Assembly: GCA_947184155.2 (NCBI GenBank)
Contig: CAMXCT020002779.1
Location: forward strand, 205,831-269,830
Length of the DNA: 64,000 nt
Reading direction: 5' to 3'
DNA from: Cladocopium goreaui
Taxonomy: Eukaryota; Sar; Dinophyceae; Suessiales; Symbiodiniaceae
Both the position numbers and the translations under genes were made by a program. Below the pieces are notes generated by a model that worked only from the letters and a program-made list of their open reading frames with translations, was not told where the DNA came from and searched no databases. Shown here piece after piece: positions 3,716 through 43,227 of the stretch. The number at the start of each line of letters is the position of its first letter. Positions within the stretch are counted from its first letter, which is position 1.

Positions 3716-3812
3716 AGTTGCCTCCTCCTGCTCCTCCTCCTGCTCCTCCTCCTGCTCCTCCTCCTCCTCTCCTCCTCCTCCTCGTCCTCCTCGTTGTCCT
3801 CCTCGTCCTTGC
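3716..3812. repeat. CTCCTCCTG / CTCCTC microsatellite
   Basis: Direct reading shows runs of CTCCTCCTG changing into CTCCTC and CTCGTC. It is open in several frames (poly-Leu, poly-Ser, or poly-Glu on the minus strand), which is an artefact of the repeat. Confidence 0.9.
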
Positions 3813-3831
3813 TCAACTGCGACCCGCGATC

Positions 3832-4098
3832 CACAGTGTTCGCTGCCGGACCTCAACCACGACCATCCACGCCCAGTGTTCCCTGCCGGACCTCAACCAC
3901 GACCATCCGCGCCCAGTGTTCCCTGCCGGACCTCAACCGCGACCATCCGCGCCCAGTGTTCCCTGCCGGACCTCAACCGCGACCATCCGCGCCCAGTGGT
4001 CCCTGCCGGACCTCAACCACGACCATCCACGCCCAGTGTTCCCTGCCGGACCTCAACCGCGAGTATCCACGCCAAGTGTTCCCTGCCGGACCTCATGT
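3832..4098. repeat. 40-bp minisatellite, about 6.5 copies
   Basis: A 40-bp unit containing CCGGACCTCAACCACGACCA and CGCCCAGTGTTCCCTG repeats head to tail with few substitutions (AC/GC, GTGTT/GTGGT). Because 40 is not a multiple of three and the unit lacks stops, all three plus frames stay open and each encodes the same ~40-residue repeat out of register. Confidence 0.95.
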
Positions 4099-4107
4099 AG
4101 GAAGATA

Positions 4108-4692
4108 TGGGACAAAGAATGTGCAGAAGAAAGTTAGAAAGAATGTCAGAAAGAATGTCAGAAGATATGCCAGAAGATATGCCAGATAGAATGCCAAATA
4201 GATTGCCAGATAGAATGCCAGAAGATATGTCAGAATATATGCCAGAAGATATGCCAGATAGAATACCAGATAATATGCCAGAAGATATGCCAGATAGAAT
4301 GCCAGATAGAATGCCAGAAGATTTGCCAGATAGAATGCCAGAAAATATGCCAGAAGATATGCCAGATAGATATGCCAGAAGATATGCCAGAAGAAATGCC
4401 AGAAGATATGCCAGAAGATATGTCAGAATATATGCCAGAAGATATGTCAGATAGAATGCCAGAAGATATGTCAGAATATATGCCAGAAGATATGCCAGAT
4501 AGAATGCCAGAAGATATGTCAGATAGAGTGCCGGAAGATATGCCAGATAGAATGCCAGAAGATTTGCCAGATAGAATGCCAGAGATATGCCAGAAGATAT
4601 GCCAGATCATATGCCAGAAGATATGCCAGATAGAATGCGAAATAGAATGTCAGAAGATATGTCAGATAGAATGCCAGAAGATTTGCCAGTAA
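4108..4692. repeat. 12-bp minisatellite (CCAGAAGATATG / CCAGATAGAATG)
   Basis: About 48 tandem 12-bp units alternate mainly between CCAGAAGATATG and CCAGATAGAATG, with variants reading GTCAGAATATATG and CCAGAAGATTTG. As the unit is four codons long, one plus frame encodes tetrapeptides MPED, MPDR, MSEY. The opposite strand is open as serine/isoleucine/glycine repeats. I see no flanking exon that would make it coding. It directly abuts the 40-bp array. Confidence 0.93.
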
Positions 4693-4699
4693 GAAAATG

Positions 4700-5800: not shown

Positions 5801-7596
5801 CCGTTGCTGACAGAGATCTTGTACTACTGAAATACTGACTGGTAATTTGCTGACTTGGATTCCACCCCTTCCATGAAGTCTGCAAAATCAGAGGGTCCTT
5901 CTCCCTGGTCTCCAACGTGCACAGCTTTTCAACTGTGTCTGGACAGAGCTGCCGACTGATGTCTTGGTGCCTACGCTACAAATGTCTTGACCTACTCTAC
6001 TCCTAGTCCTACATGGCTGTAGTGACGGTGTTCTGACCCACCATCAGGGAACCCAAAATCATCAAGCATGACTTTCCAGTGTCGTCTTGGGACCCAAGTG
6101 AGTCAATGGCACACCATATTCTTTGCACAGCAGCCGCAAAACTGAATTGCTTGGAGCGTTCCTGTGACGAGTTGTGGAGTTTCTCTCACCGCTGCAAGTG
6201 CAACAGTCCGTTGAGCCAGTTGGGGCGGCTACTTGTTATGGTCTTTCTGAAAAGCAATTTCTGTGTAGAGACACTCCACAACTCCCCGCATCTTTGCTGA
6301 CCACCTTGCGAGGGCAAAGTGATCTGTGCACGCGCGTGTGAAGCGATGGACCCTGCTGTTGCCATTGATCTGCTGGAAACGGTGGCTCCTTTGGTCGATT
6401 GGTCATGTAATGCTGGTGGCGATTCATGTCATTCTTGACAAGGGCAACAACTCTTACACATCGTCTCAAAGAATGTCGATGCGAAAGGCTGAGTTGTGAT
6501 GACAACGTTGCTAGGAAACCACCAACGGAAACCGGCGACCACAGGGTGACTTTCCACCCTGTCTGTTGGATGGTCACGAGCCAGGAAATCGAAGGGCAGC
6601 TACCAACTGCTCCCCTGTTTCCGGAAGCAAACAAGAGGACTGACACACATACCAAAGGTATTACCTTTCCCAACAATTCCCTGAAAAAGCACTGAAAGTC
6701 AGGCGTGTGTAAAGTGTATAGCTGCAAGTCAGTGGCAGTCCTTCTGGCGGCGGCTCTGCAGTTTCATTCAAGGCAACGGTTACGCACTCTAGAGCAACCT
6801 TCTGCGTTGTTGGAAGATATCTCAGCATGCAATCGACTCAGTTTGCAGCTGACAGAAACGGTTGCTGCGGGGATCAGGATAGGAACTCCAAGATCTAGAT
6901 CATGTCTTGATTCTATGCTGAAGATGTGCAGGAAATGGACCAGCCTTCTATACCTTCCTCGCACATCGTTCAAATTCTGGTGCAAGGCCCTGCAAATGTG
7001 CCCAATGCAACAAACAATTGAACCATCTCACCTGCGAATCTTTGAAGCCACTCTGTACTGGGACGGTTTAATAGATTCTAGTCGTGATGATCAAGTTCTG
7101 CGCTTTCCAGCTTGGAATTCACCTAAGCACCTGCAGGACCTTGAGATCAAAATCAATGCGGTTCAGCTGATGGCTGCGAGATTCTAAGCATGCAGCAAGC
7201 TGAAGCGCAGTTGACGCTGGGAGGCAGCGACGCGGCACCCGTTTCCAGGAAGAAAAACAGCAAATGGGTGGCAAAGTAATAATTTTTACAGTAGTCTTCA
7301 GCGCTTTTTTTGGATACTATACTGACATATAATTAATGACTACAGACATCTATAGACTAACTATATAACACAACTATATATACAAAAATCATCATCAACA
7401 TCCTTAGGAAAACTTGCTTGATTCAAGCGGCAATGTATTTCAGGAAGAACCTGACAGGTGACGCCGAAGCAGCGGCAACACATTGTGTGGTGCACCCTCC
7501 AAGCTCTACGGTCTATGCACAATGAAGTAAAAAACGAGGTAAAAAACAATGGAACAAGCTACACTGTACAGATCTTGCAGCCACCCTTCGGGAAGT

Positions 7597-9864
7597 TTAC
7601 TGAGGTGAATTCTTGAAACAACTGATCATCAGGGCCAATAGTCTTCTGGCTTGGGCTTCGGGAAAGCCTTTGGCCTTGAGCACCTTGCAGTACTTCTCTT
7701 CGTTGTTTTCAAGCTTGTCGGCAACTTCCCTCTTGATCTCATCTGTCGGCATGTTCGAATCGATCACGATAACGTCCTGCAAATCTGCCACGGATTCCCA
7801 GGCCTTTCTTATCCTTTCTTGGCCTTCCAGCCCACCTAGGGGATCCAGCTGTTCGAAAACTCCAACAGCTATGTCAAACCCTGTCCTCGCGACCCTCATA
7901 GAGACTCTCATACTTTGCCAGCAAATTCCGCAAATACTCTGCAGTGATGTCTTTCTCAAACCACCGGCCTTCCACTTTAGCTCGATTCTGTATGCGCGTC
8001 ATGGCTGCCTCACCGTTATCTTGAAATGAAGAATGAGTGTTGGTGCGTAGCGAAGATCTGCATCGATAGCAGCGAGCTTTTCCTCAAACTCTTTGAACTG
8101 ACCTTGACACACAATGCGGCCTAAAAGTCAAAATGACGAAGCTGCAAAACAAAAGTGTTACCTCATGCAACTGAGAGTTTGACTCCATGTTCTTTTTTGT
8201 GATTCTTTTTGTTGAATTGCAGCAACTCCACTGCATTCTTGCAGCCAGGCAAACTTCACAATGCAGCCGATGGTCTTACACACATGAGTTTATCATAGTT
8301 GATCAGGCCACAAGGTAAACGAAACACCCTCTGTGCTTACTAGAATTATTTTTCGTTCCATTTCTTGAGTACAGGTCAAACAGATATCAAGCATCGATTG
8401 ACGTGCATCTATATTCTAAAAGTTAGTTAACATAACTATACAAAACTGTACGAGTACATCCTCTAGACTAACATGGCAAAGACAGACATGTTCCAGGGCA
8501 AAGGTTTATATGTCACATAACCGAGGAGTTTTCAAGGATAGTACCAATTGCCAAGTTAGTCTAGTGGAAGGAAACAGTTTCAGGCATTGGCACTGTCTGG
8601 CAAATTCCCCTGCTCATGCAAGGCCGCACAGAACACCTGCACCGCGGAAGAACAACACCTCTCTGTGATTGCATGTGCGCTCCTGGTGGTTGCAATGCTT
8701 CTGTGGTGTTCCCATATTGTCTCTTCCAACTTGAGGACGGGATCAAAAGAAAACTCTGTGGAGCCAGGTTTGTGCAAGTGATCGTAAAAGTCCTCAAGCA
8801 AAGGCCACCAGGTGTTATCAGCATCCTCTGCGACGGGCTCTCGAAAAATCTGCACTTCAGGGGGCCCAAGTGGCATGGACCTGGAAAGCTCGTCCAAGAA
8901 CGTGGTCTTTCCACATCCAATGATTCCATCGCACACAATCAAGAAATGATTCATCTGTTTCGGCTGTAACTGTTGGATCCGGAGAAGGAAATCCTCAGAC
9001 AACTTGTTCAACTGTTCGTCAAAGCTTGCAGAAGTGCTCTTGTCTCTGGTCTTGGCTGTGATGACACGATTGTTGCCTCCTATTGGGCTGGTGTGGTGAA
9101 CGGTTGGTCGTTGGCCATCAGTGGTCTCCTTCTCCACGGTGCGGGTCACCTGTGAAACGACATAACTTAGAGTGAGGTCTTCTTCCTTTAAAAATCTAGC
9201 CAACGTCCCGGAGAAGGGGTTTGAGCGCTTTGGGTTTTCTCCATCAAGAACAGCACAGTGCTTCTCACAAGCGTGGAAAATAAAGATCTCATGACCGCTG
9301 GCAGACTGTGACAATTTGTTCAGTTTCTTCCAGAGTCTTTCCCTGTTTGTACATGTTCCACGAGAGCAAAAGCTGGAACTAGCTCTTGTTGAGTCATCCT
9401 CTGACGATGTCTGGCAGCAGTCCAGAGTGATCAAATGCAGACATCTGTGAGTCACGAGCTTACGTAAACTCTCAACGATTGAGTCGACAGGAATGTAGTC
9501 TTCCTTGCGGTCTGCATCGGATGGGACCAAGCAGAGAGAACCATTGTACCAGACTCCGTGTCCTGAAAAATGGAACCATGTGAAGGTTGCACCTGTCCGG
9601 ACTGCGTGAGCAAGGCGATCAATGGCCTGAAAGATCTCTCTGCGGGTTGCATCGTAGAGCTCCAAAGTAGCTCGACCTGGGAATTGTCCTTTACGCAGGG
9701 CAGTAGCCATTTCCTCCGCATCCTTGTGGCAACTCAGAAGCTCCTGATGGTTCAAATAGCGTCGGTTGCCTATCACCACAGCCCTGCATGAGTGACGTTT
9801 TGCCCAGTGCTGTTTCCGCCGACTGCTCTGTGGGCACTGAAAGATCATTTTGTTCATTAACATC
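7597..9864 (-). CDS. caspase-like (C14) protease-deoxynucleoside kinase fusion, copy 1, frameshifted
   Basis: Exon 1 (8594-9864) encodes a caspase-like fold with HFSGHG (catalytic His) and LITLDCCQT (catalytic Cys). It is followed by a deoxynucleoside-kinase N-terminal half: P-loop GIIGCGKTT, EPV, NTWWPLLEDFY and an ER motif (ITERCCSSA). Exon 2 (7880-8102) and exon 3 (7597-7776, stop at 7597) complete the kinase by comparison with copy 2. Introns are 8103-8593 (GT...AAG|G) and 7777-7879 (GT...CAG). Exon 2 has lost one base near 8010-8012 relative to copy 2, so the frame breaks between TLILHFK and the RIQNRA lid region. The exon-1 frame also differs by one base from copy 2 just after its acceptor, possibly because it uses an acceptor 30 bases downstream. 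The protein may be caspase plus a truncated kinase, or the copy may be a pseudogene. Confidence 0.7.
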
Positions 9865-11169
9865 CTACATAAACTTGACAAGCAAATGTCAGCAGCGAGA
9901 CAGATGGTCAATTTCACAAAGAACAAGCCTGCATACATTCAAAAGTCTAAGATACTCTATAATAGCAATAAGATGCAATAAGCATAGTGTAGGAATTGGA
10001 AACCACACTCAGAAGAATCTCAGAGATATGTGAAGCAAAAGTGAAGTTTATAAAACTCTGCCGGTCGAACGTGGTGGTTTGCTTTCCCTGGCTCGCGACC
10101 AGCGCTTGGGCACAATGCCAAGGAGCTCAAGCTGGTGGCTCAAACCTGGTCGATGTTGCAGTCTGCACATGGCCAACCCACTTCAACCAAGGACTGTTTG
10201 TCTGGATTCTACTGGTTCAAAAATGTTAAAAGCAATTTAAAAGTTAAATGTAGAATGTGTTCCTGTCCTAAAACATGTTCAAACAGTCCTGCAGAATGTC
10301 TTGAAGCAGAGCATATGCGAAAAGACAACACATCGAAGCTTGGCATTCCAGGTGTCATGAAAAGAACAGAGCTGGAGTCCGGAGAAGAAAATTTATAAAT
10401 TTATGTAAGATGGGAACTTCGTGAAACATAGCTTTGTTCAACAGCATCAAAAGAGTGGATGACCAACAAATCCAGGACGTACCCTTGAAATTTCAAAGCT
10501 AGACTGACGGAAAACATATCAGACATGATTTGGAATTGTGGCACTTGATAAAGCATGTTCCACTTTCTGTGACTAAGTCTTCTGCGATGACCGCGCCGTT
10601 TGGGAGTTCGAAGTGGGGAGAAGAGCTCATCGCACGACATGGCAGCACTGGTTGGGCTGCAGTATGTTGGAAAATGCCAAGTTTGGACAAACACGTCAGA
10701 TTGTTTCCAGGTTGTAGGGAAAGGCCCAAATTGTTCGATGCCTCATGCCTGGGCAAATAGTTCTGATTGCTCCATGTTTCCCTACGCTTCCCTTCTTGAT
10801 CCATTTCATCACATGTGCCCATTCACAATCCATGAATCAGGAATCGCAAGGCTCATCCGCGCGCATCCAACATTGAGCAGCAACTCTGCATGGGTCAGGC
10901 AGGTTTGACGTGCACAACCGGGTATGCGCAGCTCCATGTTGAACGTGGTCCCAGGATGTCCCAGGATGTCCAGCAGGATCCGCACCATTGGAATCATTGG
11001 AATCTTCCAGGGCTGTGCGAGGAGTGGAAGTTGACAAGGCTGTGGCTTCAGAAGACTCAAAAGAATCGGACAAAAAAAAAGGGGGTTCCCTTTCTGCACG
11101 TGATGGCAAGTGTCGATATTTTGGCCCAAAGGTATGTGTCTTTTGTCATTAATTTTGCTTGACTTGCAC

Positions 11170-11443
11170 CAGCCAGCTAACCACAATTCAACAGCAACTG
11201 CAGCCGTGGGCCGTCGCTGACGCTGACAGGCCGCAAACCGTTGCACTTGACTTTGTACATTCTTCAACAATCCGTTCCCTCCGCAGGCAAGGCCAAATAA
11301 GGGAAGCACACTTGCTTGAGGTTTGGCAAATCTTCCGGGGTGAATAAAAACTTCGAATGCCTTGGCCCTGAGAAGGCACATCATCGGTGACTGCACAATC
11401 TGCACAGCTCACGAATCTTCATCAAGACCCATCCTCAGGCGGG
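11170..11443 (-). other. strongly conserved distal block of unit 1
   Basis: About 260 bp here match 17460-17727 at roughly 94% by eye, far better than the flanking parts of the units. One minus frame is open in both copies (begins MQIVQSPMMCLLR), but the few differences are mostly non-synonymous and a second frame is stopped in copy 2, so coding is not shown. It could be a 5' exon, a promoter or splice-leader acceptor region of the caspase-kinase gene, or a conversion tract. Confidence 0.6.
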
Positions 11444-13722
11444 GGAACACAGGCCCAACAATTCAGCTGTAGTGTCTTAGATCAAAAGTCAAAACCCAGC
11501 TGTATCTCAAGCGTCATTCCACTACGGGTTGTAAAAACTGGAGGAGTTTGAGGTCCTAACCAGATTTTGTGGGTCATCGGCAAAATAGTTCTCCATGAAT
11601 ACTATAATAACAGTGGGACCTACATGTCACAAGGTTGATCTCCGTGACTGCTGGAAGAAATTTCTATTCGTTCATTAGCAAGGCAGATCTTGTACTACGC
11701 ACTACCGACACTTTATTGGGACACGATTCTGAAAGAATCCTCAATGTCTCACATGCAATCGTGTTGGTGTCAAAGACCTTGAGACATGCTCCTCTTTGAG
11801 GGACCACCCCATGTTACCCATCTGACCTTGGATTCAATCCCTCCATGAAGTCTGTAAAATCACAGGCCCCTGGGGCCCTTTCTCCCTGATCCCCACAAAA
11901 GTGCAGCTTTTCAGTTGCGTCTGGACGAGGTCCTGACTGATGTCTTTTTGTGGCCTAATCTACTCCTACCGTAGTCCTACGTGGCTGTGGTGATGGTGTC
12001 ATGACCCATGGGAACCCCAAAACCATCACGCATAAACTTTGGGGTCGAATCTACAAACAACTATAGTTGCGTTTTGGAGACCCCAGTGAGTCAATGGCAC
12101 ACCATATTCTTTGCACAACGGCCGCAAAACTGAATTTCTTGGAGCGTTCCTGTGATGCTCGAGTTGTGGAGTTTACGAATGAGACAAGTATGACAAGTGC
12201 AACAGTCCGTTGAGCCGGTTGGGGCGGGCAGCTACTTGGTACGTCCTTCACCAACACATACCAACACTCTTTGTGATGATGATGTATAACTTTCCCTAGT
12301 GGGATATGTACCAACCCCGTTCAAGAACTCAAGCAACTGGAGTATATATTGTACTGTAGTGTATCGAGACCAAATGTGAGAAAGGCCGGGTAAAGGGAGC
12401 TCCTGGCACTGCCGCCATGCGGGCCTTGTCCGAAACTGGGACCTAATCAATCAATATAAATCTGCCCAATCAGATCTGGCAGTCATGAGCTTGAGAAGTT
12501 TTGGCAGTCGAATTTGGTGACTGGGAAACAAATTCTGTGTCACCGGAGAAACTCCACAACTCCACGCATCTTTGCTGACTACCTAGCGAGGGCCAGGTGA
12601 TCTGTGCGCGTGTGAAGCGATGCGCCCTGCTGTTGCCATCGATCTGCTGGAAACGGTGGCTCCCTTGATTGATGATACTGCTGGGCTGCTGGTGGTGATT
12701 GGAATTATATTTATATAATATAAGCATTTATATGCTGTCTTTACAAACGGTGGCAGGGAGCCCACCAACGGAAACCGGCAACCAAGGTGGGTGACCCACT
12801 GTGCTCTGTCACTGTCTGTCGGATGGTCTCGAGCGCAGCTATCAACTGCTCCCCGGTTTCCGGAAACAGCCAATGGGACTGACAAATATGCCTTCTCAAA
12901 ACCACTGAAAGTCTGGTCTGTCTAAAGTGTAGAGGTAGGTTCAGTCCATCTGGCATCATCTGGCTGTGGCTCTAGGGTTTCAAGGCAACGAAGTCTGGAG
13001 CAACCTTCTGGTTGGTTGGAAGATATCCTGCCATGCCAGCAACTCGGACTTCAGCTGGCAGAAAGAGTTGCTGCTAGGATCAGGATAGGACCGACTCCAA
13101 GATGAAGAATTTGCATCGGTTCTATGCTGAAGATGCGCAGGAACTGGACCAGCGAAGGTCCTCTATATCTCCCTGGCACATCGTTCAAATTCTATGTACA
13201 TGGTACCAGGCCCTGCAAAAATGGACAGCGTGCGCTGTTTTAACAAATCCTTTATCCATCTCAGCCGCAAATCTTTGCATCCACCCAATGCCACGTGACA
13301 TGGAGCAAAAATTAGGGTATCCCCAAAACTGGGATGGTCAAATAGTAGAAATGATCAAATTCTGTGTTTTCCCTGTTGCATTGAATTTTCATCCAAACAC
13401 CTGCAGGACCTGCAGGAGCTCTCGGTGAGATCGGACCAGCCGAGCTCATCAAAGCCATTCAGAATCATTCAGCTCCGCTGGCTGGGAGGTTCTACCCAGC
13501 AAGCTGAAAGGTGGACACTTGGAGGCGGCAAATTGTAGAACTAATTTTGATTGAATTGGCATGAAATGACTGTGTATTTGAGAAAGCAAAACTTCACAAT
13601 ATGGGACATGGATGAATGCCGTGGTGCAACCTCCAAGCTCCACAATCTATGGCACGCGGTGTAAAAAACAATGGAACCAGCCACACTGTGCAGGTCTGAT
13701 AGCTGGAGAAAAGCTCCTGGAA

Positions 13723-15918
13723 TTAATTACTGAAGCAACTCATCATGAGGGCTGGCAGCTCTCTGGCCTGGTCTTCTGGGTATCCTTTGCGCTGGAAGAG
13801 CTCGCAGTATCTGGCTTGGTTTTGGTGAAGTTGATCGGCAACTGTCCTCTTGATCTCATCCGTCGACATGCTTGCATCCACCGTAATCACGTCCTACAAA
13901 AGTTGAGAGATAGCTGGTGACTGTCTAGCAAAACAATCACGCCGAACAAGACTCAAAAAAGCTGTACCATTCCGTTCATTTCTGTCCCTGTCCTCCCGAT
14001 TCTTGTAGAGGCTATCATATTTCACATCCAGCTTCTTCAAATAAGGTTCTGGCATGCCCAGCTCAAAATGGCGGCCTTCTTGGGCTCGCTTTTGTATTCG
14101 GGGCATCGCCTCCTCCACTGGCATCTTGAAGTAGAGAATTAGCGTTGGATCGTTGCGACAATTCTGGTGGACACGTTCCAGCTTCTCCATGAACTCCTGA
14201 AAGCAACCTTGAATCGAGCATCAAGATGAAAACGAATATGTATGAAAATTGTGAACATGTGTATTCATGAATCAACCTGTTGCGATCCTTTGAGGCATGA
14301 GATTGTGCCTGCCACCATAATATAAACACACCCACCATAATTTCAACACACCCACCTCTTTAAATCAGCCGGTATGAGGGACTAGATGAGGTGGAGCAAA
14401 AGAAAATGGCTCCGACGATAGAAAGAAGTTGTAGGAATACAAGGCTCACTTCGTGACTCAAGCATGTAAAATCATGTAAACCCCTCGTGCTTCGTGCAGG
14501 ACAGCCTAATTACATCTAATTACCGTGTTGTGGACAACTTGCGTATTACAAGACAGATTCGAGGAGCGCCCCGGGAACAAGCAGCACCATGTCCCACAGT
14601 CTGACCAAGAGTGGATTGATGACATACATTGATTCCTTTGAGCAAAAACGTCCATCTTTCCCGCCTAGGAGCGATCCGACAATATCCCATCCTCGAGCAA
14701 GGCTTTGCAAAACACCAGTACAGCGGAAGCACAGCCCCGCTCTGTAATAGTGGGTGTGCTTCTGTTGGTTGCAATGTTGAAGTGGTGTTGCCAGATCGCA
14801 TTTTCCAATTCGATCACGGCTTCGTCTATGGATTCTCCTGTTCTAATGGCATTGTAGAACTTCTCGAGCAAGTGCCACCACGTGTTTGTTTCATGCTCTG
14901 GGACGGGCTCCGGACAGATCTGTATGCCGGGCACGCGCAAGGACATGGAAAGATCAGCCAAGAGCGTGGTCTTTCCACATCCGATGTTTCCATCTAATAC
15001 AATCAAGAAGGGATCATTTTCCCGTGGGGTTGACATATTCAGAAGGTTGTCAAGCGTGAGCAAAGCCACTCCCCCAAGTCCTTTCATCATCAGCTTCTGT
15101 ATTTTTTGTTCTATATTGACGCACACTTCATCTGCTTGTGTAGCAGTTGTGATGTTGCGAAAGAAGCTCTTTGGGCAAGAGCCGAGGTGGCAAAGCGTTG
15201 GCACCTGCTTTTTGTTGGTTTCCCGGGTTTCCTGAGTAACCGTCTGGGTGACTTCTCCGATGAAATAGCCTAGTTTGCAGTTTGGTAGGTGATCTTCTCT
15301 GTCCGGAACGGCACAACACTTCTCACAAGCAAAGAAGACTACCACCTCATGTCCGCTAGCAGATGGTGAGAAGGAATAAATTCTCTTCCAGAGTTCTCCT
15401 TTCTTTCCACCCATTTTTCCACGACAAGAGGTGGAGCTGGAGACATCCGTATGGTCTCGCAGCGTTTGGCAGCAATCCAATGTTATGATGTGCAAGCATC
15501 CCTGAGTCTCATGTTTGCTCAAAGACTCCAAAATTGAGCTCACCGGAACATTGGCTTCAAAATAGCGAGAATCAGATGGGACTAAGTGGAGATCATCTTG
15601 GTACCATATTCCATGTCCGGAATAATGGAACCATGTGAAGCGCGCACCGCTCCTAACCGCTTCACTGAGGCGGTTGATAGCCTGAAGAATTGTGTTTCTG
15701 TCTGCATCATAGTACACCTCAGTTGCTTCACCTGGAAATTGCCCTGATCGCAAGCCTTTGGAGATTTCCTCAGCATCCTTGTGGCAACTAGGCAGCGGCT
15801 TGTGACAATCGTAGTGCCAGTTGCCAATCACTCCTGCCACTGCAGCCATAAGCTGCCACTCTCCGACTTTGTTCTTGGTGACCACTGCAGCTGCTGACCC
15901 GATAGGTTCATTAACATC
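13723..15918 (-). CDS. caspase-like (C14) protease-deoxynucleoside kinase fusion, copy 2
   Basis: Three exons join in frame: 14673-15918, 13987-14207 and 13723-13893 (stop TAA). The N-terminal domain has caspase/metacaspase signatures: GVIGNWHYD strand, FTWFHYSGHG (His about residue 106 counted from the exon start) and IITLDCCQT (Cys about 153-154). The C-terminal domain is a deoxynucleoside kinase: DGNIGCGKTT P-loop, CPEPVPE, NTWWHLLEKFY, TERG (usual ERS), LILYFKMPVEEAMPRIQKRA (strand plus lid arginines) and EPYLKKLDVKYDSLY. Such kinases phosphorylate deoxynucleosides to dNMP. Intron 1 starts with GC, and intron 2 most simply with GA after REDR. An acceptor (TTTTTTGTAG) at 15919 shows that 5' exons exist but were not found. 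Intact by eye; function of the fusion is unknown. Confidence 0.8.
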
Positions 15919-17459
15919 CTACAAAAAACACTTGAGCACAGTAAACGTCAGCGCGAAAAAATGTCTCCAGCTATCAACATGATGTCATGCAACAACATGA
16001 CAACAAAAACGGAAAACTGAACTTCCAAATCTCACATTGATTTGGCCACATCTCAAACAGGTCAAGTGCACAAAGACTTGGCCGCAGAAATGTGTTGCTG
16101 GTGGCTCCCCCTGATCATCGCTTGGGCACAACATGGCACAACATTTACCAAGTGGCGAATTGAAGCTGGTGGCGACCTGGTGGACACTGCGGGGACACCA
16201 CCAATGAAAACAGGCTTTTTTGCACAGGCGCAGCATATCTGATTCCTGAAATTTCCTCAATGCCTGATGGGACTAATGATTTGCAACATTTAGCAACTAA
16301 TCGTGAAAACTTGAAATCAAATTCAAACGGTTCCAGCATCTTGCGGCTGGGGAACACGTATCAGGTTATCAGCAAACACAAAATTATTTAAGAGTGAATT
16401 AGTTGGGAAACTCATCAAACAGAACTTTCCAGAACAGAATCACCAAGACATACAGACATGTATAACTCAACCCTGCAACTGTGAATACAGAAAAATGGAA
16501 GGTGCAATATCAGAGAGATGATGGTGGAATGATTGCTGTGACAATGGCAGAAACATGTTCCACTTTCCCCGGCTAAGTCTGCTGCGACCGGGGAACGCTT
16601 CGGAGTTTTTTTTGCGGCGAAAAGAGATCATCGCCATGGCAGCACTGGTTGGCCTCCAGTTGAAGAACTACTGCGTTTTGACCAAGACACCCAGATTATG
16701 GTGAAATATGGTGAAATTGTATGAAAGGTGCTTGATGCTTGGGCAAAAAGAAAAAACTGCTCACTTTTTTTTTGGGCCGTTTTTCCAGCCATTTCATCCC
16801 AGGTCCCATGTCTTCGTTTGCCAATGGATCGTTTTTGGGCCCACGAATCGCACCAACTCTGCATGGAAGTCAGGCAAGTTTGAAATGCACACGTTTCTTA
16901 AAATGGAGAGACCTCAAAATCATCCAAGATAGTTATTGATTCCAATAATAGTAGGCAAAACATGGCAAAACATAAGAAAACCAATCTCGGGATACTCCAA
17001 TGGTGAGGAACATGCGAATCTCCCCGTTCGAAGCTTGCGGTACTTTTGACTCGAGCGGCTCTAGCGTCTCCAAATCCGCACCGCCGTTGGATTCTTCCAG
17101 GGCTTATGTGCGAGGAGTGGTGGTTGGCACGGCTGTTTTATCAGAAGGCTTACAAACTCAGGGTTCACCATTTAAAGCAGGGAATAACGTCAAACTTTCG
17201 GCGCAAAGATCTGCAAATGCTTCTCTTTTGGGGATGTACAAACCATCCTGCTGTTTGGCCCAAGTTTGATTCACAAGTCCCCATTTCAGATCTTGCCACA
17301 TGGCTTTCCCAGGCATCTTCAGTGTCATATTAAGATTTGGAATGGTTGGAATGGTCTCAAGCGCTCATGGACAAACTCACAACATCTCACAATCATCTTC
17401 CCTCGTTTGCTTCCTTCGTTTGTGCTGATGACATATTATAATTGACGTGATACTGCTTG

Positions 17460-17727
17460 CACAAGCCAGCCAACCACCATTCAACAGCAACTGGGGCCGT
17501 CGCTGACGCTGACAGGCCGCAAACCGTTGCACATGACTTTGTACATTCTTAAGCAATGCCTTACCTCCGCAGGCAAGGTCAAATAAGGGAAGCACACTTG
17601 CTTGAGGTTTGGCAAATCTTCCGGGGTGAATAAAAACTTCGAATGCCTTGGTCCTGAGAAGGCACATCATCGGTGACTGCACAATCTGCACAGCTCACAA
17701 ATCTTCATCAAGACCCATCCTCAGGGG
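17460..17727 (-). other. strongly conserved distal block of unit 2
   Basis: Partner of 11170-11443. In this copy the minus strand reads GCGGAG|GTAAGG, a good GT donor, where unit 1 reads GGAACGG. That would suit an exon ending here, but it is not established. Confidence 0.6.
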
Positions 17728-41660: not shown

Positions 41661-41690
41661 TTGTAAATGACATCTTCAAGTTGGATTTTT

Positions 41691-42476
41691 GAAGGAAGTC
41701 TCGCACGAAATGCGTTTTTGAGAGATAGCAGATGCACGAAACCCTATGTTTTTCCATACAAAGTCCGTCCCCGAACCTCGATGATCTACCTCTGCGGTGC
41801 GACGGTTGCGAGACGGTCTCGTGTGTGGTCGGATCATGGGCGGATCATGGGCGGATCATTCTCGGATCGGTTCCGCATTGTAAATGGGGTTTCACCTGTT
41901 TTTCGTGCATGTGCGGTCGACAGAATTCCATTGTGATTTGCAACTGTAGGATCGTTCCCGCAATGTAAATGGGATTGCAAGTGGTGCTGGTGGATGAGTT
42001 GCCGATGGAATTCCATTGTGATTTGCAACTGTAGGATCGTTCCCGCAATGCAAATGGCATTGCAAGTGGTGCTGGTGGAAGAGTTGCCGATGGAGTTTTG
42101 AAGGAAGTCTCGCACGAAATGCGTTTTTTGAGAGATAGCAGATGCACGAAACCCTATGTTTTTCCATACAAAGTCCGTCCCCGAACCTCGATGATCTACC
42201 TCTGCGGTGCGACGGGTGCGAGACGGTCTCGTGTGTGGTCGGATCATTCTCGGATATGTTCGGATCATCCTCGGATCATTCTCGGATCGGTTCCGCATTG
42301 TAAATGGGGTTTCACCTGTTTTTTCGTGCATTGCGGTCGACAGAATTCCATTGTGATTTGCAACTGTAGGATCGTTCCCGCAATGTAAATGGGATTGCAA
42401 GTGTTGCTGGTGGATGAGTTGCCGATGGAATTCCATTGTGCTTTGCAACTGTAGGATCGTTCCCGCAATGTAAATG
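41691..42476. repeat. 409-bp tandem repeat, about 1.9 copies, with nested ~84-bp unit
   Basis: GAAGGAAGTCTCGCACGAAA begins at 41691 and again at 42100. The second half of each unit contains a ~84-bp subunit (GAATTCCATTGTGATTTGCA...GAGTTGCCGATG), seen near 41925, 42009, 42345 and 42429. Open frames on both strands (up to 244 codons minus) follow the repeat and are not treated as genes. Confidence 0.92.
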
Positions 42477-43215
42477 GCTGCGTCAAGGTTGCTTCGTGCT
42501 GTGGCTGCATTGGTAATACTATTGTCTTTTGCAGCTGGACTTCGTAAATCGTATTGGAGTGGCTGCATGAAGGCTGCGACATGATTTGTCAGCAGATTTT
42601 CTCCATTTTGGCGCTAGTGATTTTCCTTCTAAAAATCCTTTTAAAAAGTGCTTCAAAATCGTCTTTTTTTCGCTCTGGCGTCGAGATCTGGTTTTGGAGC
42701 ACAATTTCCGACGCCGTTGCGCGTAGTTCTATTGTGTTTTGCAACTCAGTCTCTGCAGATCGCATTGTAATGGCTGCGTCAAGGTTGCTTCGTGCTGTGG
42801 CTGCATTCGTAATACTATTGTCTTTTGCAGCTGGACTTCGTAAATCGTATTGGAGTGGCTGCATGAAGGCTGCGACATGGATTTGTCAGCAGATTTTCTC
42901 CATTTTGGCGCTAGTGATTTTCCTTCTAAAAATCCTTTTAAGAAGTGCTTCAAAATCATCTTTTCTTCGCTCTGGTGTCGAGATCTGGTTTTGGAGCGAC
43001 AATTTCTGACGCCGTTGCGCGCAGTTCTATTGTGTTTTGCAACTCAGTCTCTGCAGATCGCATTGTACTGGCTGCGTCAAGGTTGCTTCGTGCTGTGGCT
43101 GCATTCGTAATACTATTGTCTTTTGCAGCTCGACTCGTAAATCGTATTGGAGTGGCTGCATGAAGGCTGCCACAGTGATTTGTCAGCAGATTTTCTCCAT
43201 TTTGGTCGCATTAGT
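42477..43215. repeat. ~296-bp tandem repeat, about 2.5 copies
   Basis: GGCTGCGTCAAGGTTGCTTC starts at 42477, 42772 and 43070. Copies differ by a few substitutions. Its TTCTATTGTGTTTTGCAACT portion resembles TTCCATTGTGCTTTGCAACT of the preceding array, so the two arrays share ancestry. Confidence 0.93.
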
Positions 43216-43227
43216 GTTTTTTTGTTC

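Follow-up and report, generated by a model that had tools for sequence, protein, structure and literature searches.

MALT1-like proteases are activated by dimerisation, paracaspases and metacaspases cut after basic residues, and enzymes of the deoxynucleoside kinase (dNK) fold form dimers. To our knowledge, the switching of caspase-like proteases in protists without animal-type caspase pathways is largely open. In the nucleoside triphosphate-dependent conflict systems of bacteria, the genes of caspase peptidases accompany those of nucleotide-dependent proteins or are fused to them, and a small-molecule kinase (of the aminoglycoside-kinase type) is listed among the effectors of such systems (available parts of PMC7159879 and PMC8195603 for the former, of PMC8195603 for the latter). 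Neither text uses 'nucleoside kinase' or 'nucleotide kinase'. The combination described here is a gene of the coral symbiont Cladocopium goreaui, on the minus strand of a 64,000-nucleotide stretch of contig CAMXCT020002779.1 (the window), in which a caspase-like protease and a kinase of the dNK fold are joined. Cladocopium and its relatives hold a genuine family of such two-domain genes.

The gene (copy 1) has a minus-strand open reading frame (ORF) of 417 codons (15918-14668) that carries FTWFHYSGHG, IITLDCCQT, the P-loop GNIGCGKT, EPV and ER, all in frame. Exons 15849-14673, 14207-13993 and 13893-13723 translate exactly to the 520-residue protein P0001 (an 'unnamed product' at NCBI, 'Kinase protein' in UniRef); the introns between them have GC-AG (465 nucleotides) and GA-AG (99 nucleotides) ends. 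Against Pfam, exon 1 alone matches Peptidase_C14 over residues 27-229 (56.1 bits, cut-off 21.4, E 5.6e-15) and dNK over residues 306-415 (41.1 bits, cut-off 27, E 2.1e-10). The rest of the dNK match lies in exon 2 as a fragment slightly below the gathering score of 27 (26.4 bits, E 6.8e-6), and the full joined P0001 scores 81.6 bits against dNK (PF01712, E 8.5e-23, same cut-off). The initial annotation of this DNA had placed both folds in a single uninterrupted exon, with two more exons to finish the kinase, and on both counts it was right, the three-exon join being P0001 letter for letter. Its coordinates also stand: 15918 comes directly after an acceptor-like TTTTTTGTAG, the other three copies in this genome having an acceptor-like TGTAG at the matching place, and the annotated Met is at 15849. 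The checks that it proposed (profile searches, structure prediction and a look for the fusion elsewhere) recover both families over cut-off, caspase and dNK folds at the top of the fold matches, and the same architecture in the sequences of other relatives. Since copy 3 has a different length between the acceptor-like site and the Met, 15850-15918 is unlikely to be coding. The features of copy 1 are as follows.

14673-15849, minus strand: coding exon 1, which reads without a break through the caspase-like domain, the linker and the first half of the kinase and has a GC donor (Pfam; part of the exact P0001 match).
15850-15918, minus strand: exon 1 upstream of the Met, probably 5' untranslated, behind the acceptor-like TTTTTTGTAG (TGTAG at the same place in the other three genome copies).
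15139-15849, minus strand: caspase-like domain, residues 1-237, ends approximate (Pfam and fold match).
15615-15613, minus strand: His79 of the caspase-like domain.
15471-15469, minus strand: Cys127 of the caspase-like domain.
15777-15775, minus strand: putative P1-binding Asp25 of the caspase-like domain.
15291-15292, minus strand: site of an absent 15-residue p10 segment, at the Asp186/His187 boundary (alignment of family members; contrast in the predicted local distance difference test, pLDDT).
15013-15138, minus strand: linker, residues 238-279, mostly of low confidence and fast-evolving (structure model, comparison of copies).
15036-15034, minus strand: internal in-frame Met272 in the linker, the start of P0011.
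14673-15012, minus strand: first part of the dNK-fold kinase, with P-loop, EPV, WW and ER (Pfam, alignment, fold match).
14991-14968, minus strand: P-loop GNIGCGKT, in exon 1.
13993-14207, minus strand: exon 2, kinase lid region (Pfam and P0001 match).
13723-13893, minus strand: exon 3, kinase C-terminus and stop (P0001 match).

The roles of His79, Cys127 and Asp25 in copy 1 are presumed from known families. A chance open frame is ruled out: the two longest stop-to-stop frames in the window are both fusion exons (452 and 417 codons), and in 60 first-order Markov surrogates the longest frame is at most 293 codons (median 189), so that the copy 1 frame exceeds all 60. A mis-joined gene model is ruled out by the presence of both domains within one exon and by the recurrence of this architecture in other genomes. 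(According to PMC9412976, full-length transcripts guided gene prediction in C. goreaui, which does not mean that copy 1 had one.) A viral origin is unsupported: exon 1 has no match in phages, and six pattern stretches for P0003 in viral_contigs yielded no confirmed one. The claim that no protein with both folds has been described is consistent with the open-licence PMC literature, a scope that excludes subscription papers and preprints, in which no paper was recognised by title or abstract as an account of the fusion and one search had a single hit, on a red-algal Nme5-like protein; the available parts of PMC9412976, PMC7159879, PMC8195603 and PMC5982838 make no mention of it.

A second fusion gene, overlooked by the initial annotation, lies about 6 kb from copy 1 in the same orientation (copy 2, 9938-7597). 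It scores 83.8 bits against Peptidase C14 (PF00656, cut-off 21.4) and consists of the following parts.

8594-9938, minus strand: exon 1, counted from the Met of P0009, with the p10 helix kept and 46% identity to P0001 in this part (both Pfam domains over cut-off).
7886-8102, minus strand: exon 2, kinase lid region, with the frame broken (in copy 4 this part is open).
7597-7776, minus strand: exon 3, kinase C-terminus.

The acceptor-like AG of copy 2 (9866-9865) is followed at once by an in-frame ATG at 9863, which is a likelier start than the Met used by P0009; the loss of frame in exon 2 is either that of a pseudogene or a sequence error. A search of the genome (11 candidates scored) gave four matches, every one a fusion, arranged as two tandem pairs: copies 1 and 2 on the window's contig (C2779, about 6.1 kb apart) and copies 3 and 4 on another (C5794, about 6.3 kb). 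P0003 and P0014 are copies 3 and 4, letter for letter, and P0009 is 97.8% identical to copy 2 without being identical to any of the four. Both domains are also found in P0002, P0005, P0006, P0010 and P0019 (75, 59, 59, 45 and 32% identical to copy 1 exon 1, respectively), none of which matches a genome copy identically; P0019 has most of the caspase and the entire kinase inside one ORF. The names s24_g31 (P0002) and s24_g33 (P0005), read as they stand, suggest another tandem pair.

Comparison of the copies (dN/dS, the ratio of nonsynonymous to synonymous change, by Nei-Gojobori with 500 codon bootstraps, 462-500 of them defined for the domain figures) shows purifying selection in the deeper pairs, on the protease domain as well as on the kinase. 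For p20, p10 and kinase, in that order, the values are 0.23 (0.11-0.43), 0.59 (0.31-0.99) and 0.33 (0.19-0.53) between copies 1 and 2; 0.30 (0.15-0.51), 0.37 (0.18-0.63) and 0.30 (0.14-0.51) between copies 3 and 4; and 0.37 (0.17-0.81), 0.42 (0.21-0.73) and 0.38 (0.21-0.65) between copies 1 and 3. Separate dN and dS values for copies 1 and 2, calculated without bootstraps (0.33 and 1.30, 0.66 and 0.99, 0.31 and 0.83), are in rough agreement. Synonymous distance is patchy (0.13 in p20 and 0.76 in the kinase for copies 1 and 3), and its sharp variation along members of the array points to gene conversion between copies.

SGHG and D-[CM]-C-Q are present in all 13 family members that hold the region. 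The top fold match of the predicted caspase part is the paracaspase MALT1 (PDB 3uo8, 3v4o; the 50 rows shown of each of the Foldseek and VIA lists are occupied by caspases and dNKs, which leaves room for other families further down). Only the caspase part is comparable, at 18-19% identity; the Ig and Death domains of MALT1 are not found in P0001 or P0005 (Pfam, E 0.01), and a kinase fold is fused instead. Because plant metacaspase 9 also matches, lower down (Foldseek rank 35), assignment to paracaspases rather than metacaspases is unsettled. The 'death protease' of the initial annotation is unsupported: the closest fold is that of a paracaspase, and copy 1 is short of part of p10, whose PFS/LFS helix part is kept in the other 12 family members with the region. 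As for the bacterial caspases, P0001 (39.1 bits) and P0005 (33.8) fall below the 140-bit cut-off of the EACC1-associated caspase model NF047832, for which P0019 is not listed, and the caspase, VakA and mad8 models of PADLOC give weak matches.

Drosophila deoxynucleoside kinase (1j90) heads the fold list for the kinase half. When 14 family members are aligned by MAFFT with the fly enzyme and 10 further dNK-family proteins (four of them named bacterial), the P-loop Lys, the EPV Glu and the ER Arg are kept in all 14, and Tyr70 in 13. By contrast, the column of fly Gln81, which we take to contact the base, holds V, G, T, I or A in all 14 (column placed by sequence alignment) and Gln in 10 of the 11 references. 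From its closest known kinases, the fly enzyme and human dCK/dGK, the family differs in this replacement, in a WW motif of its own and in the fused protease. The initial call of a deoxynucleoside kinase thus holds for fold and profile and is too specific in its substrate, since the base-binding Gln is replaced throughout. Thymidylate kinase models also match weakly: PF02223 gives 27.6 bits with P0001 (cut-off 27) and TIGR00041 31.8 bits (cut-off 83.25), the dNK score being far higher. The kinase half is active-looking and has the appearance of a separate subfamily within the dNK fold, one that probably does not recognise its substrate as dNKs usually do.

How might two such domains work together? 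The explanation that we put first, and hold tentatively, is that the kinase-fold domain pairs the protease domains and switches them by its ligand state, a gating of the kind that the initial annotation had raised. The kinase-fold domain would have a nucleotide or some other phosphate acceptor as its ligand and would hold two protease domains together, a pairing suggested by the dimers of dNK-fold enzymes and the activation of MALT1-like proteases by dimerisation; cleavage by the protease would be after basic residues, the preference of paracaspases and metacaspases. Copy 1, short of its p10 segment, may have weakened proteolysis and serve chiefly as a kinase or by partnering intact copies. 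A bolder version makes this a new class of protease sensor that evolved in dinoflagellate symbionts, a paracaspase-like protease switched in cis by a repurposed nucleoside-kinase fold reading a nucleotide or nucleoside-like metabolite (raised, for example, by viral infection or stress of the coral host); we think it unlikely. A conserved fusion of this sort offers, in a coral symbiont, a single polypeptide on which metabolite sensing and proteolysis could be studied together.

Several observations weigh against ligand-switched pairing, in which gating and dimerisation remain proposals, if possible ones. The domain arrangement is not predicted (predicted template-modelling score, pTM, 0.48-0.51), and the linker, of about 40 residues, has mostly low predicted confidence. 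Its dN/dS is poorly constrained, at 0.62 (0.22-1.57) for copies 1 and 3 and 2.96 (0.61-4.85, 325 replicates) for copies 2 and 4, and is undefined in the two deepest pairs. Precise allosteric coupling is disfavoured by the poor conservation of the linker. In the recent pair, copies 2 and 4, the evidence for selection is weaker, with p20 at 0.50 (0.24-1.08), p10 at 0.53 (0.30-0.98), the kinase at 0.37 (0-1.83) and the whole exon at 0.57 (0.40-0.89), so that 1 lies within the intervals of p20 and of the kinase. The linker, together with a pTM as low as 0.48 and the existence of kinase-only relatives, would suit a true fusion protein whose domains are independent, tethered and bifunctional with no cross-talk; this we regard as somewhat unlikely, the exon 1 frame being open across both domains in four copies and in divergent relatives, a sign that the joining as such is maintained.

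The kinase-only relatives bear on the same issue. Among the matches listed (120 out of 2069), P0012, P0013, P0016-P0018, P0026 and P0029-P0032 have this kinase, and no caspase domain was detected in them. Most of these ten have WW and ER, the Gln is lost in the five tested, and the four matches in this genome include none of them. In a 25-segment kinase tree, with moderate supports (85/94, 83/86, 90/96) and the root unresolved, they form one group (85/94) among fused members (P0027 being called 'fused' by eye, from an N-terminus resembling a caspase tail, in the absence of a PF00656 call). Their branching there argues that the kinase may work alone, and fusion followed by loss of the caspase is a possible history.

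The linker of copy 1 contains QKIQKLMMKG and TPREN, and the kinase-only P0011 begins near its end. Both features, with a paracaspase-like fold, whose class is specific for basic residues, speak for self-processing, in which the protease would, on some trigger, cut its own Lys/Arg-containing linker and free the active kinase or itself. The basic sites are out of register between copies, however, and the p10 of copy 1 is damaged, and we consider self-processing improbable.

No transcript spanning the junction of the two halves was seen. P0011, the one relative marked as a transcript (MMETSP, four member sequences), is the kinase alone (249 residues), is labelled 'complete' and starts at the linker Met. 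Its sequence is that of copy 1 and spans both splice junctions, so that it supports those junctions and, being kinase only, not the fusion. It could be taken to mean that the halves are separate products, with a kinase-only mRNA arising by internal trans-splicing or initiation and the caspase part confined to the gene model or produced on its own. In copies 2 and 4 an AG lies at position -44 relative to the P-loop, a short way upstream of the internal Met and behind 20 bases that are 75% pyrimidine; a kinase-only mRNA could start there. Copy 1, the source of P0011, is different: AGs at -121 to -79 from the P-loop have 25-40% pyrimidine, no further AG follows before the Met, and one must go back to -179 for a clearly pyrimidine-rich AG, so that an internal trans-splice site looks poor. 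Moreover, an acceptor-like site lies at the same place upstream of the caspase start in all four copies, the caspase part is under purifying selection, and a transcript assembly lacking its 5' end would look alike. Our preferred reading of P0011 is such a 5'-shortened assembly, and separate products are in our judgement no likelier than self-processing.

Neither copy in the window is clean, since copy 1 has lost its p10 segment and the kinase exon 2 of copy 2 is out of frame; exon 3 of copy 4 was not found within its 4.2-kb locus by word search and tblastn. A family of functionless fusion relics in decay would account for these defects. It is nonetheless very improbable: copy 3 shows no defect in its three exons (each viewed separately, unjoined), dN/dS is well below 1 in the deeper pairs, and both splice junctions of copy 1 are present in P0011.

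Some minor observations remain. At the BLASTN setting that finds no coding match longer than 80 bases between copies 1 and 2, the flanks of the fusion genes share four stretches (76-93% similarity) that are offset by about 6.0-6.3 kb and lie in 6083-6978 with 12070-13193 and in 11163-11439 with 17456-17725. Elsewhere in the window, Pfam finds nothing over cut-off in ten other ORFs and Rfam has no match over its whole length; 3812-4694 and 41682-43221 are tandem or near-tandem repeat blocks, with short degenerate repeats and repeats of 389 and 463 aligned bases (about 95% alike). In P0026 one ORF links the C-terminus of one caspase-less kinase to the N-terminal exon of another, a layout suggesting tandem kinase units without caspase. 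P0012, P0013, P0017 and P0018 carry a GACYWC motif upstream of the kinase, in an N-terminal part of unassigned type.
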